A stretch of DNA of 29,042 nucleotides from a virus. The notes beneath the pieces were generated by a model. That model saw nothing but the letters and a program-made list of their open reading frames with translations. It did no database searches and had not been told where the DNA came from. The translations under genes were made by a program, and so were the position numbers. The stretch is taken from positions 1 through 29,042 of IMG/VR virus record IMGVR_UViG_3300025759_000488. The stretch is one strand, 5' to 3'. The stretch's first letter is position 1. Every line of letters begins with the position of its first letter. This document shows, piece after piece, positions 5,424 to 17,801 of the stretch.

Positions 5424-5831
5424 ATGCTTGAAGGATTAGCTTGTTTAGCACTTAATATATATCATGAAGCTAGAGATCAACCAATAGAAGGTCAGGTAGC
5501 TGTAGCTCAAGTAGTAATGGAAAGAGTAAAGAGTAATAAATATCCTAACAGTATCTGTGAAGTGGTAATGCAAGGTCCAACATACTCGTGGTCTATTAAT
5601 TATCCTATTAAACATAGATGCCAATTCAGTTGGTACTGTGATGGATTAAGTGACAGACCTAAAGATATGACTGCATATTTAAATTCAGTAGATGTTGCAG
5701 AAAAGACTTTACATGGACTGAAAGATGTGGTAAAAGGATCTATGTACTACCATAGTGTAAAAGTAAAACCTTGGTGGGCAAAGTACAAGATAAGAGTGAG
5801 ACAAATTGGTGATCACATATTTTATAAGTGA
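5424..5831 (+). CDS. SleB/CwlJ-type cell wall hydrolase
   Basis: A 135-residue enzyme of the Hydrolase_2 (SleB/CwlJ) family, which cleaves peptidoglycan glycan strands. The signature NIYHEARDQPIEGQVAVAQV holds the likely catalytic Glu15, followed by VMERVKSNKYPNSICEVV, CQFSWYCDG and a C-terminal SMYYHSVKVKPWW. These match the family order. No signal peptide is present, so it either needs a holin or acts from within the virion or after lysis begins. The ribosome site AGGAGG is ideal and lies just after a stable hairpin. The gene stands in the early block, far from the GH24 endolysin and holin of the late block, so the phage carries two wall-degrading enzymes. Confidence 0.87.
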   Translation: MLEGLACLALNIYHEARDQPIEGQVAVAQVVMERVKSNKYPNSICEVVMQGPTYSWSINYPIKHRCQFSWYCDGLSDRPKDMTAYLNSVDVAEKTLHGLKDVVKGSMYYHSVKVKPWWAKYKIRVRQIGDHIFYK

Positions 5832-5843
5832 AGGAGATAATAT

Positions 5844-6881
5844 ATGAAAACAACTATACTAACACTACTACTAACATATTTTGTTGCATCTACATCAATG
5901 GGTTTAGCAGAAGATCGTAATCAAATAAGAGTAGTAGGTTCATCTACAGTATATCCATTTGCAACTACAGTTGCTGAGAACTTTGGTAAGCAAACTAAAT
6001 ACAAGACTCCTGTTATTGAAAGCACTGGATCTGGAGGAGGAATGAAGATATTCTGTTCTGGTATGGATCTAAGATATGCTGATGTAACGAATGCATCTAG
6101 GCGTATGAAGAAGAAAGAATATAACAAGTGTATGAATAATGGAGTTAGAAATATATTAGAAGTAAAGGTTGGGTATGACGGTATAGTTCTAGCTAACAGT
6201 AAAAAAGCTAAAAAGTTTAGTATGTCTTTGAAAGATGTCTTCCTTGCACTAGCAAAGGATATACCTACAGAAGATGGTAAAACTATACCCAATCCATATA
6301 GAACATGGAAGCAAGTAAATCCTATGTTACCTGCTACAAAGATAGAAGTACTAGGCCCACCACCAACGTCAGGAACACGAGATGCTTTCGTTGAGTTGGC
6401 TATGGAAGGTGGGTGCAAAACTTTTAAGTGGGTTAAGGCAATGAAGAAGACAGACAAGAAAGCCTATAAATCTTTGTGTCATACTATACGAGAGGATGGT
6501 GTGTACATAGAAGCAGGAGAGAATGACAACATGATTGTTCATAAACTTGTAACAAACAAAAATATATTAGGTATCTTTGGTTTTAGTTTTTTAGACACAA
6601 ACAGAGACAAAATACAAGGTAGTATAATTCAAGGCAACAAACCTACCTTTGATAACATTGCTACTGGCAAGTACCCTGTATCAAGACCCTTGTACTTCTA
6701 TGTTAAAAAGAATAATATGGGTATCATTGGAGGACTACGAGAGTATGTAGAAATGTTTACCTCTGACAAAGCATCTGGTCCTGAAGGTTATCTTACTGAT
6801 AAAGGATTGATACCTCTAGGTGATGTTGAACGTAGCAAAAGAAGTAAAGCTATGAAGACATTAGAAAACTTGGTGATGTAA
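5844..6881 (+). CDS. pstS: PstS-like periplasmic phosphate-binding protein
   Basis: A 345-residue homologue of PstS, the substrate-binding component of the high-affinity phosphate ABC transporter. A signal peptide (about residues 1-22, hydrophobic core ILTLLLTYFVAS) should send it to the periplasm. Ligand-binding segments are present: VVGSSTVYPF near the mature N terminus, ESTGSGGGMKIFCSG, ADVTNASRR and GPPPTSGTRDAF. The sequence resembles alphaproteobacterial PstS as I remember it, implying capture from a host. There is no pstCAB here, so it would feed the host permease and raise phosphate uptake during infection. A ribosome site (AAGGAGA) precedes ATG 5844. Phosphate-acquisition genes are known auxiliary genes in marine cyanophages and pelagiphages. 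Confidence 0.9.
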   Translation: MKTTILTLLLTYFVASTSMGLAEDRNQIRVVGSSTVYPFATTVAENFGKQTKYKTPVIESTGSGGGMKIFCSGMDLRYADVTNASRRMKKKEYNKCMNNGVRNILEVKVGYDGIVLANSKKAKKFSMSLKDVFLALAKDIPTEDGKTIPNPYRTWKQVNPMLPATKIEVLGPPPTSGTRDAFVELAMEGGCKTFKWVKAMKKTDKKAYKSLCHTIREDGVYIEAGENDNMIVHKLVTNKNILGIFGFSFLDTNRDKIQGSIIQGNKPTFDNIATGKYPVSRPLYFYVKKNNMGIIGGLREYVEMFTSDKASGPEGYLTDKGLIPLGDVERSKRSKAMKTLENLVM

Positions 6882-15619: not shown

Positions 15620-15655
15620 GACCCTCTCTGCTTCATCCTAGAGGGTCATTTTTTT
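15620..15655 (+). terminator. Intrinsic terminator of the + strand block
   Basis: GACCCTCT (15620-15627) pairs with AGAGGGTC (15640-15647) in an eight-pair stem, followed by seven Ts. It ends right at the stop codon of the first - strand gene. Read on the other strand there is no U-tract, so it acts for + strand transcripts only. Confidence 0.88.
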
Positions 15656-15910
15656 CTAACGTCTATAATTTTTGGTCTTTTTAGCAATTCTTTTAGGTTG
15701 TTTAGAAAATTGCTTACCTTTCTTGGTATCTCTTCTCTTCTTCCTAGTAGTAGCAGCATACTCAGCAGAACTCATAGACTTTATAGCTGATGAAGGTAGA
15801 TATCTTTCTCCTGTAGCCTTTGGTCCTTGAGTAGATGGTTTACCTGATTTGGTTCTCCACTTCTGTCTAGTCCAGTTTTTAAGACTTCTTTGAGATTTCT
15901 TTAGGGCCAT
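15656..15910 (-). CDS. Small basic conserved phage protein
   Basis: An 84-residue, very Lys/Arg-rich protein: SLKNWTRQKWRTKSGKPS, then TGERYLPSSAIKSM, SAEYAATTRKKR and a basic end. I recall close relatives in many marine phages and large environmental phage genomes, always unnamed. The charge suggests binding to packaged DNA or RNA. It starts at ATG 15910, overlapping the previous stop as TAATG, with AGAGG upstream. It is the last gene of the late operon. Confidence 0.8.
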   Translation of the reverse strand: MALKKSQRSLKNWTRQKWRTKSGKPSTQGPKATGERYLPSSAIKSMSSAEYAATTRKKRRDTKKGKQFSKQPKRIAKKTKNYRR

Positions 15911-16101
15911 TATCCTCTATACCCTCCTCCTGCTTTTTTATAAGCAGATGCTAACATTTGAGCTTTTCTTGCTGACCATTGTCCACTAGCACCGCCTTTA
16001 CTACCTGCCTTAATACGACTAAATATTCTCTTTCTTAGTGCAGGTTTTGTATAGTTACCTGCTTCGTTTACTTTACTTTTAGATTTTTTCTTAGCTGCCA
16101 A
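15910..16101 (-). CDS. Small basic conserved phage protein, TTG start
   Basis: A 63-residue basic protein. It contains NEAGNYTKPALRKRIFSRIK, then GGASGQWSARKAQMLASAYK, a pattern I remember from many marine phage genomes without known function. The start is TTG 16101, with AGGAGG six bases before it; no ATG is available near. The next gene is coupled through a TAATG overlap. The Lys/Arg content again points to nucleic acid. Confidence 0.8.
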   Translation of the reverse strand: MAAKKKSKSKVNEAGNYTKPALRKRIFSRIKAGSKGGASGQWSARKAQMLASAYKKAGGGYRG

Positions 16102-16102
16102 G

Positions 16103-16552
16103 TTATCCTCCTATAAACATTAATCGCTCATGATTTCTTCGTTTTATTAATCCTTTTAACTTTCTTCCTCCTGCAAATACCCAACGTGGAAATTCATCTG
16201 CTGCACCAATATAATCTCCTCTGTTTATTTTACGTCTTAGGGTACTGCTTTGTAGAGAACCACTACCTAAATTAAATACGAATGAGCATAACGAATCAAA
16301 CTGCCCATCCTCTAAAGGTACTTTTATTAGTCGTAATACTGCTACTTGTGACTTTCTTACATCTCTCCTTAGTAATTGGTCAGCTCGATCTTTATTTATA
16401 TCAGGATGATCTTTTGTTACTCGTTTGCCATCTAGACCCCAGATAGCTCCATACCCGATTGTCCAATGCTGGGCAGGGCATAAATAAGGAGAGGAGCTAT
16501 ACCCCTCATACAACTTAATGAGATCAAGACCTTCATCAGTCATACTTCTCAT
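16103..16552 (-). CDS. GH24 endolysin (T4 lysozyme-like)
   Basis: A 149-residue muramidase that should cut the glycan backbone of peptidoglycan at lysis. KLYEGYSSSPYLCPAQHW followed by TIGYG gives catalytic Glu16, Cys25 and Thr31: an E-C-T triad with the 9- and 6-residue spacing of T4 lysozyme's E11-D20-T26. Cys in the middle is also known in P1 Lyz. C-terminal helices include FDSLCSFVFNLGSGSLQSS and WVFAGGRKLKGLIKRR. No signal or SAR anchor is present, so it needs the holin to reach the wall. Its start overlaps the preceding gene by four bases. Confidence 0.92.
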   Translation of the reverse strand: MRSMTDEGLDLIKLYEGYSSSPYLCPAQHWTIGYGAIWGLDGKRVTKDHPDINKDRADQLLRRDVRKSQVAVLRLIKVPLEDGQFDSLCSFVFNLGSGSLQSSTLRRKINRGDYIGAADEFPRWVFAGGRKLKGLIKRRNHERLMFIGG

Positions 16553-16725
16553 TTTTTAGTTTTCTTTATTCTAGCTTGTACAGTTTTAGATAAATCTTTA
16601 AAATGAACTACTGGTTTACTAGTCTTATTATGTGTTTTACCACTATGGGTAGACCCGTTAGGCATCTTGTGTGTACCACCCTTATATTCTTTACCACTTT
16701 TAAAGTAATGCTTCACGCCTTTCAT
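16549..16725 (-). CDS. Small basic conserved phage protein
   Basis: A 58-residue Lys/His-rich protein beginning MKGVKHYFKSGKEYKG, then GTHKMPNGSTHSGKTH and HFKDLSKTVQARIKK. I remember short phage proteins with this GGTHKMPNG-x-HTGKTH pattern, of unknown role. ATG 16725 is chosen, one base after the previous stop, with AAGGGA upstream; a TTG three codons earlier is the alternative. It lies just before the endolysin. Confidence 0.75.
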   Translation of the reverse strand: MKGVKHYFKSGKEYKGGTHKMPNGSTHSGKTHNKTSKPVVHFKDLSKTVQARIKKTKK

Positions 16726-16726
16726 A

Positions 16727-16906
16727 TCATTCAAAATCCCTTACAAGTGTTTTATCAGTGTGACAATTGCATCTACACACCTTTGGATCACAATTGCACT
16801 CTATACAACTGTCACAATTACATTGCTTATTAGTATTATTATCTTCTTCTGTTTTATTTACCATGATACTACTAGTTCCCCCATAAAATACTTTCCCACT
16901 AATCAT
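16727..16906 (-). CDS. Cys-rich mini-protein
   Basis: A 59-residue frame starting at ATG 16906 (overlapping the preceding TGA as ATGA) and ending one base before the next start. Residues 29-49 hold eight cysteines and a histidine, in the order CxCxxCxxCxC, four residues, CxCxCH. Density and spacing recall metallothioneins or a small zinc-cluster protein. The first 20 residues (MISGKVFYGGTSSIMVNKTE) contain a second possible start at Met15 with GGGGG upstream. No family is recognised. The exact fit between neighbours supports it as a real gene. Confidence 0.68.
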   Translation of the reverse strand: MISGKVFYGGTSSIMVNKTEEDNNTNKQCNCDSCIECNCDPKVCRCNCHTDKTLVRDFE

Positions 16907-17049
16907 TGTCTGTTTCTCCAGAACTCTTTACTTTTTAGATACTTTTCTTTATCTACTGGTTTTACTTTAATCCACTCATCTTCAATTAATACTTTCTCAC
17001 CCTCATCTTGTATTAATGATCCTGTAGAATCAAACATAGGCTTATTCAC
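16903..17049 (-). CDS. Small hypothetical protein, GTG start
   Basis: A 48-residue acidic frame starting at GTG 17049, with GGAGG eight bases upstream, in the 325-base gap between longer genes. It reads VNKPMFDSTGSLIQDEGE, then LIEDEWIKVKPVDKEKYLKS, and ends KEFWRNRQ. Its stop overlaps the start of the Cys-rich gene as ATGA. No family is recognised. Confidence 0.62.
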   Translation of the reverse strand: MNKPMFDSTGSLIQDEGEKVLIEDEWIKVKPVDKEKYLKSKEFWRNRQ

Positions 17050-17061
17050 TAAATACCTCCT

Positions 17062-17340
17062 TTACCATTTTACTTTGTTAGCCCAATACGCTGCTGACAT
17101 TTTACCCTTGGCTATGTTTCTACCATGTCTAGCCTTAAATGATTTTCTTCTAGCTGTTTGTCTTGACGATTCTCCTTTCTTAGGTTTACCAGCAGTTTTA
17201 ACTCCTTGCTGACCAAACCGTATTAGCTTTACCTTAGTACCTTCTTTAGCTAGTACGGCATGAGATTTTTTAGGATGACTTGGTGTTCTCTTAGGTTTAT
17301 TGTATCCAGAGAATGTTTCTTTACCTTTTTTAATTGCCAT
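17062..17340 (-). CDS. Conserved basic phage protein (DUF6321-like)
   Basis: A 92-residue basic protein with ETFSGYNKPKRTPSHPKKSH, then KVKLIRFGQQGVKTAGKP and a strongly conserved-looking end, FKARHGRNIAKGKMSAAYWA. I remember this pattern from many marine phages under a DUF name (I believe DUF6321). Function unknown; the combination of basic residues and a compact aromatic end suggests a nucleic-acid or virion-associated role. It overlaps the holin stop as TAATG. Confidence 0.85.
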   Translation of the reverse strand: MAIKKGKETFSGYNKPKRTPSHPKKSHAVLAKEGTKVKLIRFGQQGVKTAGKPKKGESSRQTARRKSFKARHGRNIAKGKMSAAYWANKVKW

Positions 17341-17801
17341 TACGAACTACTCCTAGATCTTTGTAAGGCTCTACTTCCAAACCAGAATGAGATAATAGCA
17401 GCAAATATTCCTTGAGTTTCTTCATCCCACAGTGTTTGTATAGCCATTTCCCATACAACTCCATCTGTATATATTAAACCATACATAGCTGTACCTTTTA
17501 TTACTGCAAATAAAGTAAAGAATAAATATGTTATAACTGGTCTAACTGATGCTCTCAAAGCAGACATAAATCCTGTAGTCTTTAATGACTGATCGTGTTT
17601 GTATATTGCCTTAGTCTCACTAATATCAGCTTCTATATTTAGTGCTTCAATCTTCTGAACATGTTCTAGTTTAGATGCTTCCAGTTGTCTGTCCATCATG
17701 GCTAATTCATGCTTACGATCTTGCCAATCATTGACCATGTCGAACACTTTAGGTAAGGCTGATCCAGCAAATCCAATTAATGATCCTAGTATAGTAATCA
17801 T
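17340..17801 (-). CDS. Holin, three-TM type (GTA-holin-like)
   Basis: A 153-residue membrane protein resembling the three-TM holins of gene transfer agents and phages. There is an N-terminal hydrophobic stretch (ITILGSLIGFAGSALPKVF), a long charged helical middle, the signature RASVRPVITYLFFTLFAVIK, and a final helix GIFAAIISFWFGSRALQR with a short basic/Ser tail. It would permeabilise the inner membrane and release the endolysin. It overlaps the upstream MscS-like gene by four bases (ATGA), and the endolysin lies five genes downstream. Confidence 0.8.
   Translation of the reverse strand: MITILGSLIGFAGSALPKVFDMVNDWQDRKHELAMMDRQLEASKLEHVQKIEALNIEADISETKAIYKHDQSLKTTGFMSALRASVRPVITYLFFTLFAVIKGTAMYGLIYTDGVVWEMAIQTLWDEETQGIFAAIISFWFGSRALQRSRSSS

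Follow-up and report, generated by a model that had tools for sequence, protein, structure and literature searches.

Cys-rich small open reading frames can arise by chance, and one such frame in the lysis region of a marine phage raises the question whether it encodes a genuine protein and, if so, whether that protein resembles any known kind of metal-binding module. The DNA analyzed, 29,042 nucleotides of the IMG/VR record IMGVR_UViG_3300025759_000488 (hereafter, the window), is a fragment of a relative of the HMO-2011 group; its RNR is 67% identical at the DNA level to Roseobacter phage CRP-3 and matches HMO-2011 and pelagiphages more weakly. Two blocks of genes run toward each other and meet near 15.6 kb, where the GC skew changes sign. 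The late block consists, in order, of a phrog_6637 membrane protein, phrog_7595, a 48-aa gene, the Cys-rich gene, a 61-aa gene, a GH24 lysozyme (PF00959), phrog_17747 and phrog_14910 (Table 1). Elsewhere, the window encodes a Mom-family protein, a DNA-modification gene (543-1196; PF25680, E 2.9e-36), a second cell-wall hydrolase (5424-5831; PF07486) in the block opposite that of the lysozyme, and a PstS-like periplasmic binding protein with an apparent signal peptide (5844-6881; PF12849), likely a phosphate-related cargo gene.

The Cys-rich gene comprises 59 codons and a stop, and residues 29-49 of its 59-aa product (MISGKVFYGGTSSIMVNKTEEDNNTNKQCNCDSCIECNCDPKVCRCNCHTDKTLVRDFE) include exactly eight Cys and one His, as an earlier note on this DNA had pointed out, likening the density to that of metallothioneins; Cys accounts for 38% of this core and 13.6% of the whole protein. 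GGAG lies 9 nt 5' of the ATG, which shares 4 nt (ATGA) with the stop codon (TGA) of the 48-aa ORF before it, and the downstream gene has an in-frame ATG at 16725, one base past the stop codon at 16729-16727. The same note held that the gene exactly fills the space between two starts, which is close to the mark given the 4-nt overlap and the ATG at 16725; the TTG at 16734, the start of the downstream gene in the ORF list, is probably not the true one.

Table 1. Features of the late region of the window
Feature	Position	Strand	Basis and remarks
Cys-rich mini-protein gene	16727..16906	-	ORF; homologues in ~99 viral contigs; pN/pS 0.18 over core
Putative metal-ligand core CNCDSCIECNCDPKVCRCNCH (C1, C3, C6, C9, C11, C16, C18, C20, H21)	16760..16822	-	Conservation among 61 distinct cores; re-found with Cys/His-only patterns
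N-terminal module MISGKVFYGG	16877..16906	-	Invariant in window clade; exchanged in relatives
48-aa gene upstream, modular sibling (FDSTGSL ... EFWRNRQ), without Cys core	16903..17049	-	Stop/start overlap with Cys-rich gene
Downstream small basic gene (61-aa), likely start ATG 16725	16549..16734	-	Absent or replaced in several relatives: not fixed beside Cys-rich gene
Terminator-like hairpin	15624..15645	+	Junction of converging gene blocks, at GC-skew switch
Phage lysozyme, GH24 type (endolysin)	16103..16552	-	PF00959 E 4.6e-41; phrog_7 endolysin
phrog_17747 small basic protein	15910..16101	-	PHROG match; upstream flank of slot holding Cys-rich gene in other phages
phrog_14910 small basic protein	15656..15910	-	PHROG match; downstream flank of slot holding Cys-rich gene in other phages
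phrog_7595 small basic protein, upstream neighbour	17062..17340	-	PHROG match
Probable membrane protein, holin candidate (phrog_6637, function not assigned)	17340..17801	-	Holin role inferred from sequence and place

A high density of Cys is, on its own, weak evidence for a gene because a chance frame in the same window is equally Cys-rich: a non-coding stop-to-stop segment elsewhere has 8 Cys in 24 residues. Such frames are what could be said for a chance ORF without translation, a reading that becomes exceedingly improbable once the relatives are compared. Pooled NG86 counts over 35 distinct nucleotide cores give pS of 0.80 and pN of 0.14 (ratio 0.18), with Cys codons alternating freely between TGT and TGC and synonymous sites saturated; the reading frame is open in 85 of 85 distinct nucleotide cores, and start and stop are coupled to the neighbouring genes. 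Seven ligands (C3, C6, C9, C11, C16, C18 and H21) are present in all 61 distinct amino-acid cores, C20 in 57 and C1 in just 37; among the other core residues, D/N12 occurs in 61 and D4, E8 and V/I15 in 60 each, and S/N5 and R/K17 are also conserved, although the expression used for counting itself fixes several residue classes (scans with Cys and His alone revealed little true family outside it). Conservation at positions 16-21 is not a search artefact because the search pattern left these positions free, and here C16, C18 and H21 are found in 35 of 35 cores and C20 in 31. Antisense ORFs over the gene carry no information, as TGY codons produce no stops in the opposite in-register frame. The substitutions show strong purifying selection, and the gene is real because its homologues are under strong protein-level constraint; it had indeed been overlooked, as the earlier note suspected, being absent from every family library searched.

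How widespread is the gene? The first scan of viral contigs yielded 13 relatives, with 35 to 100% identity, and profile and pattern scans enlarged the family, the final profile scan returning 99 stretches (about 99 viral contigs). The search by Cys pattern that the earlier note had proposed, run on viral contigs, recovered relatives with this pattern, so that both homologues and protein-level constraint, whose absence was to count against the protein, are in evidence. Patterns consisting of Cys and His only, the first of which gave 101 stretches, led back to this family, extra residues included, with few divergent additions among the matches listed. Taken over all scans, the family has at least 61 distinct amino-acid cores. 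Other matches to these patterns were set aside, namely, poly-Cys stretches, antisense-type frames, stop-broken matches and one isolated frame (L151; labels L and G denote contigs carrying relatives or comparison sequences); L073, which fits an earlier search pattern and lacks the core, was not counted as a relative.

No homologue was detected in 50,697 records of isolated phages with five protein queries, which produced chance matches only. Among 84,980 species of bacteria and archaea scanned, there were two matches, of which one, from Acidobacteriaceae (L102), is not homologous, and the other, in a Halobacteriovorax MAG (L103), is identical in sequence to viral contig L092, that is, a phage contig inside a MAG. 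The presence of this 34,887-base phage contig both as a viral record and in the MAG (PBIO01000021.1) reflects a host link or a binning error. Neither the window protein nor the family members had a relevant match among Pfam, PHROGs, NCBIfam or PADLOC profiles or PDB sequences, and none of 38 members matched the PADLOC anti-phage defence profiles; a match of L101 to DUF3648 (E 0.001) is under the cut-off of that family and was seen in L101 alone. The family comprises previously unnamed, virus-only mini-proteins that are apparently confined to phages. Literature searches found no phage-encoded metallothionein, within libraries and papers that are not exhaustive.

The placement of the gene in the lysis region also stood up, the gene sitting in a late/lysis cassette beside lysozyme. 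A PF00959 lysozyme is encoded in 54 of the 58 contigs tested, counting a partial match under the curated cut-off at the end of contig G034, and in all 54 it shares a strand with the Cys-rich gene and is at most 2 kb away (downstream in 46 contigs, upstream in the other 8). The phage backbones that carry the gene are not all related: L030 matches HMO-2011, and L071 shows only short SSB-gene matches to unrelated phages. In five contigs (L030, L036, L046, L062 and L063), the gene occupies the slot between phrog_17747 and phrog_14910, which in HMO-2011 (L015 3219-4985) holds methanesulfonate monooxygenase (msmA) and one further ORF and in CRP-345 is empty. The arrangement is akin to the late cargo slots of HMO-2011-type marine phages, which carry the Cys-rich gene in several contigs and msmA in HMO-2011, except that the copy in the window is found on the opposite side of the lysozyme; since slot contents vary between phages, the Cys-rich gene behaves as late-region cargo. 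The same neighbourhood could be read as pointing to a minor virion or packaging-associated protein with a structural metal site, given that in several phages the gene is flanked by two small basic late proteins and is on the late strand with the structural genes. We consider this improbable: none of the isolated phages searched has the gene, not even relatives in which the flanking genes are the same, and hence it is not needed for virions.

Outside the core, the proteins are variable in composition. The N-terminal module of the window protein is replaced in relatives by MGYYRRYY, MTWGKIFYGE, MVANKQTSLFDSTGSL, FDSTGSL-type peptides and others, and tails such as FKNKGE and RDFE recur among members. 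The 48-aa neighbour protein in relatives contains MGYYRRYY, FDSTGSL and EFWRNRQ and has no Cys core; FDSTGSL-type peptides are joined to the core in L101 and L170, L187 encodes a 48-aa-type protein ending in CEC...PKVCEC, and in L007 the two genes are fused through a deletion. On these comparisons, the Cys-rich gene and the 48-aa gene are modular siblings. The combination of conserved non-Cys residues and swapped flanking peptides suggests a specific folded module rather than simply a metal sponge. In L062 (9888-9926), L075, L046 and L077, a half-module, MTCECGExxxCMC, with the outer spacing of the core, comes before the complete core, as a partial duplication might have produced.

The loss of a ligand is frequently compensated. 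Members without C20 (L064, L068, L071 and L101) have an extra Cys two residues N-terminal to the core, some of those without C1 (L031 and L041-L043) have a Cys at position 14, and forms with both the original and the extra Cys exist (L034-L040; L061 and L095), so that the ligand swaps look like gain before loss. The idea that the number of ligands is strictly constant was dropped because of members with seven core Cys and the His and no obvious replacement (L164, L168, L185, L196 and L207). In three contigs (L011 3161-3346, L012 8001-8186 and L013 3617-3802), the core is altered (CECGNNLKCECEPEVS) and contains an in-frame TAG, after which comes CGCH; the tail being invariant, decay, a shortened functional form and readthrough are indistinguishable. 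This degraded core implies that the putative cluster may be dispensable in at least one lineage.

Metallothioneins are proteins of less than 10 kDa, rich in Cys with CxC and CxxC motifs and with few or no aromatic residues, that bind d10 metals in a metal-thiolate cluster. At 59 aa, with 8 Cys in a 21-residue core and CxC pairs, the mini-protein falls within this class by size and Cys content; by aromatics the whole protein does not, as it contains F7, Y8 and F58 (and relatives have YYRRYY modules), all of these being outside the core, which is free of aromatics. SmtA is a metallothionein with His ligands, the Cys spacing of which is unlike the CxCxxCxxCxCx4CxCxCH of the mini-protein. The likeness to metallothioneins (the mammalian beta domain, M3S9, and bacterial SmtA/BmtA, Pfam Metallothio_Pro) extends to the small size, the CxC pairs, a set of nine potential ligands, the number found in a three-metal cluster, and the lack of predicted regular secondary structure, and His ligands may also occur in bacterial metallothioneins, for example PflQ2 (PMC7614390). 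The differences are the lack of a profile match (the catalogued metallothionein families in Pfam and NCBIfam match neither the window protein nor any of 38 members), the aromatics outside the core, the phage-only distribution and the fact that metal binding is here a prediction. Classical zinc ribbons and fingers, in which a beta-hairpin or helix of at least about 10 residues separates two knuckles, are not a suitable model: the longest ligand-to-ligand gap in the core is 4 residues, and no secondary structure is predicted.

In CXC domains, the ligands follow the order pair, single, pair, single, pair, single. The mini-protein shares this order and the number of nine ligands with the CXC domains of tesmin/TSO1 and MSL2 and with pre-SET Zn3Cys9, but its ninth ligand is His, C1 is dispensable (Cys in 37 of 61), there is no Pfam or PDB match, and the core thus departs from nine invariant Cys in three pair-single repeats. 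This resemblance bears on the main rival reading, in which the core is a structural zinc cluster, a small rigid module that offers its conserved side chains (D, S, E, P, V and R/K), together with the flanking peptides, to a partner, either a protein or a nucleic acid, as a host takeover factor, an inhibitor or a lysis or packaging adaptor. In the CXC domain of MSL2, which binds DNA, nine closely spaced ligands form a Zn3 cluster, and similar clusters occur in metallothioneins (PMC3447885). The conserved non-Cys residues of the core and its attachment to exchangeable N- and C-terminal peptides, some common to the 48-aa neighbour, speak for such a role as well. We nonetheless deem it somewhat unlikely: no partner is known, no profile or PDB sequence matches, and the core loops of 2-4 residues are far shorter than those of CXC domains; CXC and pre-SET Zn3Cys9 modules, which belong to eukaryotic chromatin proteins, spread nine Cys over about 50 residues (PMC3447885). 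The numerous CxC and CxxC pairs and the late, lysis-side location would also suit a peptide that is redox-active or forms disulphides and acts at lysis or later, such as a thiol guard or a peptide released on lysis; however, no export signal was seen, and a role as metal ligands accounts better for the invariant His and for the odd number of Cys (7 or 9) in some members, which leaves little likelihood for this option.

The reading we favor, with a probability of roughly 0.45, is a late, cytosolic metal-thiolate mini-protein that would bind two or three zinc-like ions and engage in metallothionein-like metal handling. What it builds on directly is the gene and its constraint, together with the pattern of ligands, the restriction to phages and the lysozyme linkage. 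The protein would be made late in infection along with the lysis and packaging genes. Reading the sequence reveals neither an evident signal peptide nor a membrane span, so the thiols are expected to be in the reduced state; within the reducing cytoplasm of the host, the core, with its 7-8 Cys and its His, would wrap metal ions into a compact metal-thiolate cluster, with two tetrahedral Zn(II) sites possible in 8-ligand members and a three-metal cluster of the M3L9 kind in 9-ligand members, including the window protein. The likeliest job of such a protein would be to catch and buffer zinc (or copper) released by the breakdown of host proteins and ribosomes before lysis. AlphaFold2 predicted no secondary structure (pLDDT 54 and 58, with low confidence also for the 61-sequence input), too weak a model for a fold search; this is compatible with a fold set by metal, neither favouring nor excluding it. 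Counting against a metal store is the conservation of D4, E8, D/N12 and V/I15 beyond what a pure store would need, and against a strict metal cluster, the 7-Cys members and the degraded core of L011-L013. More tentatively, the family might be a phage-specific metallothionein-like one, unrelated to the cellular families, that captures or redistributes host zinc or copper before lysis or employs a metal cluster as a takeover device.

Over 2 million small phage genes of unknown function have been reported (PMC11323111). The mini-protein is one among very many of this kind, but differs from uncharacterized small phage proteins in having a ligand signature and a fixed genomic neighbourhood, which therefore make for a testable biochemical prediction. 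No library searched contains the family, and yet, if it binds metal, its way of working is that of an already known kind of protein. Across much of the ocean, trace metals limit growth. A compact invariant ligand set, found beside lysozyme in several unrelated phage lineages, offers a handle on whether phages manage host metals late in infection.
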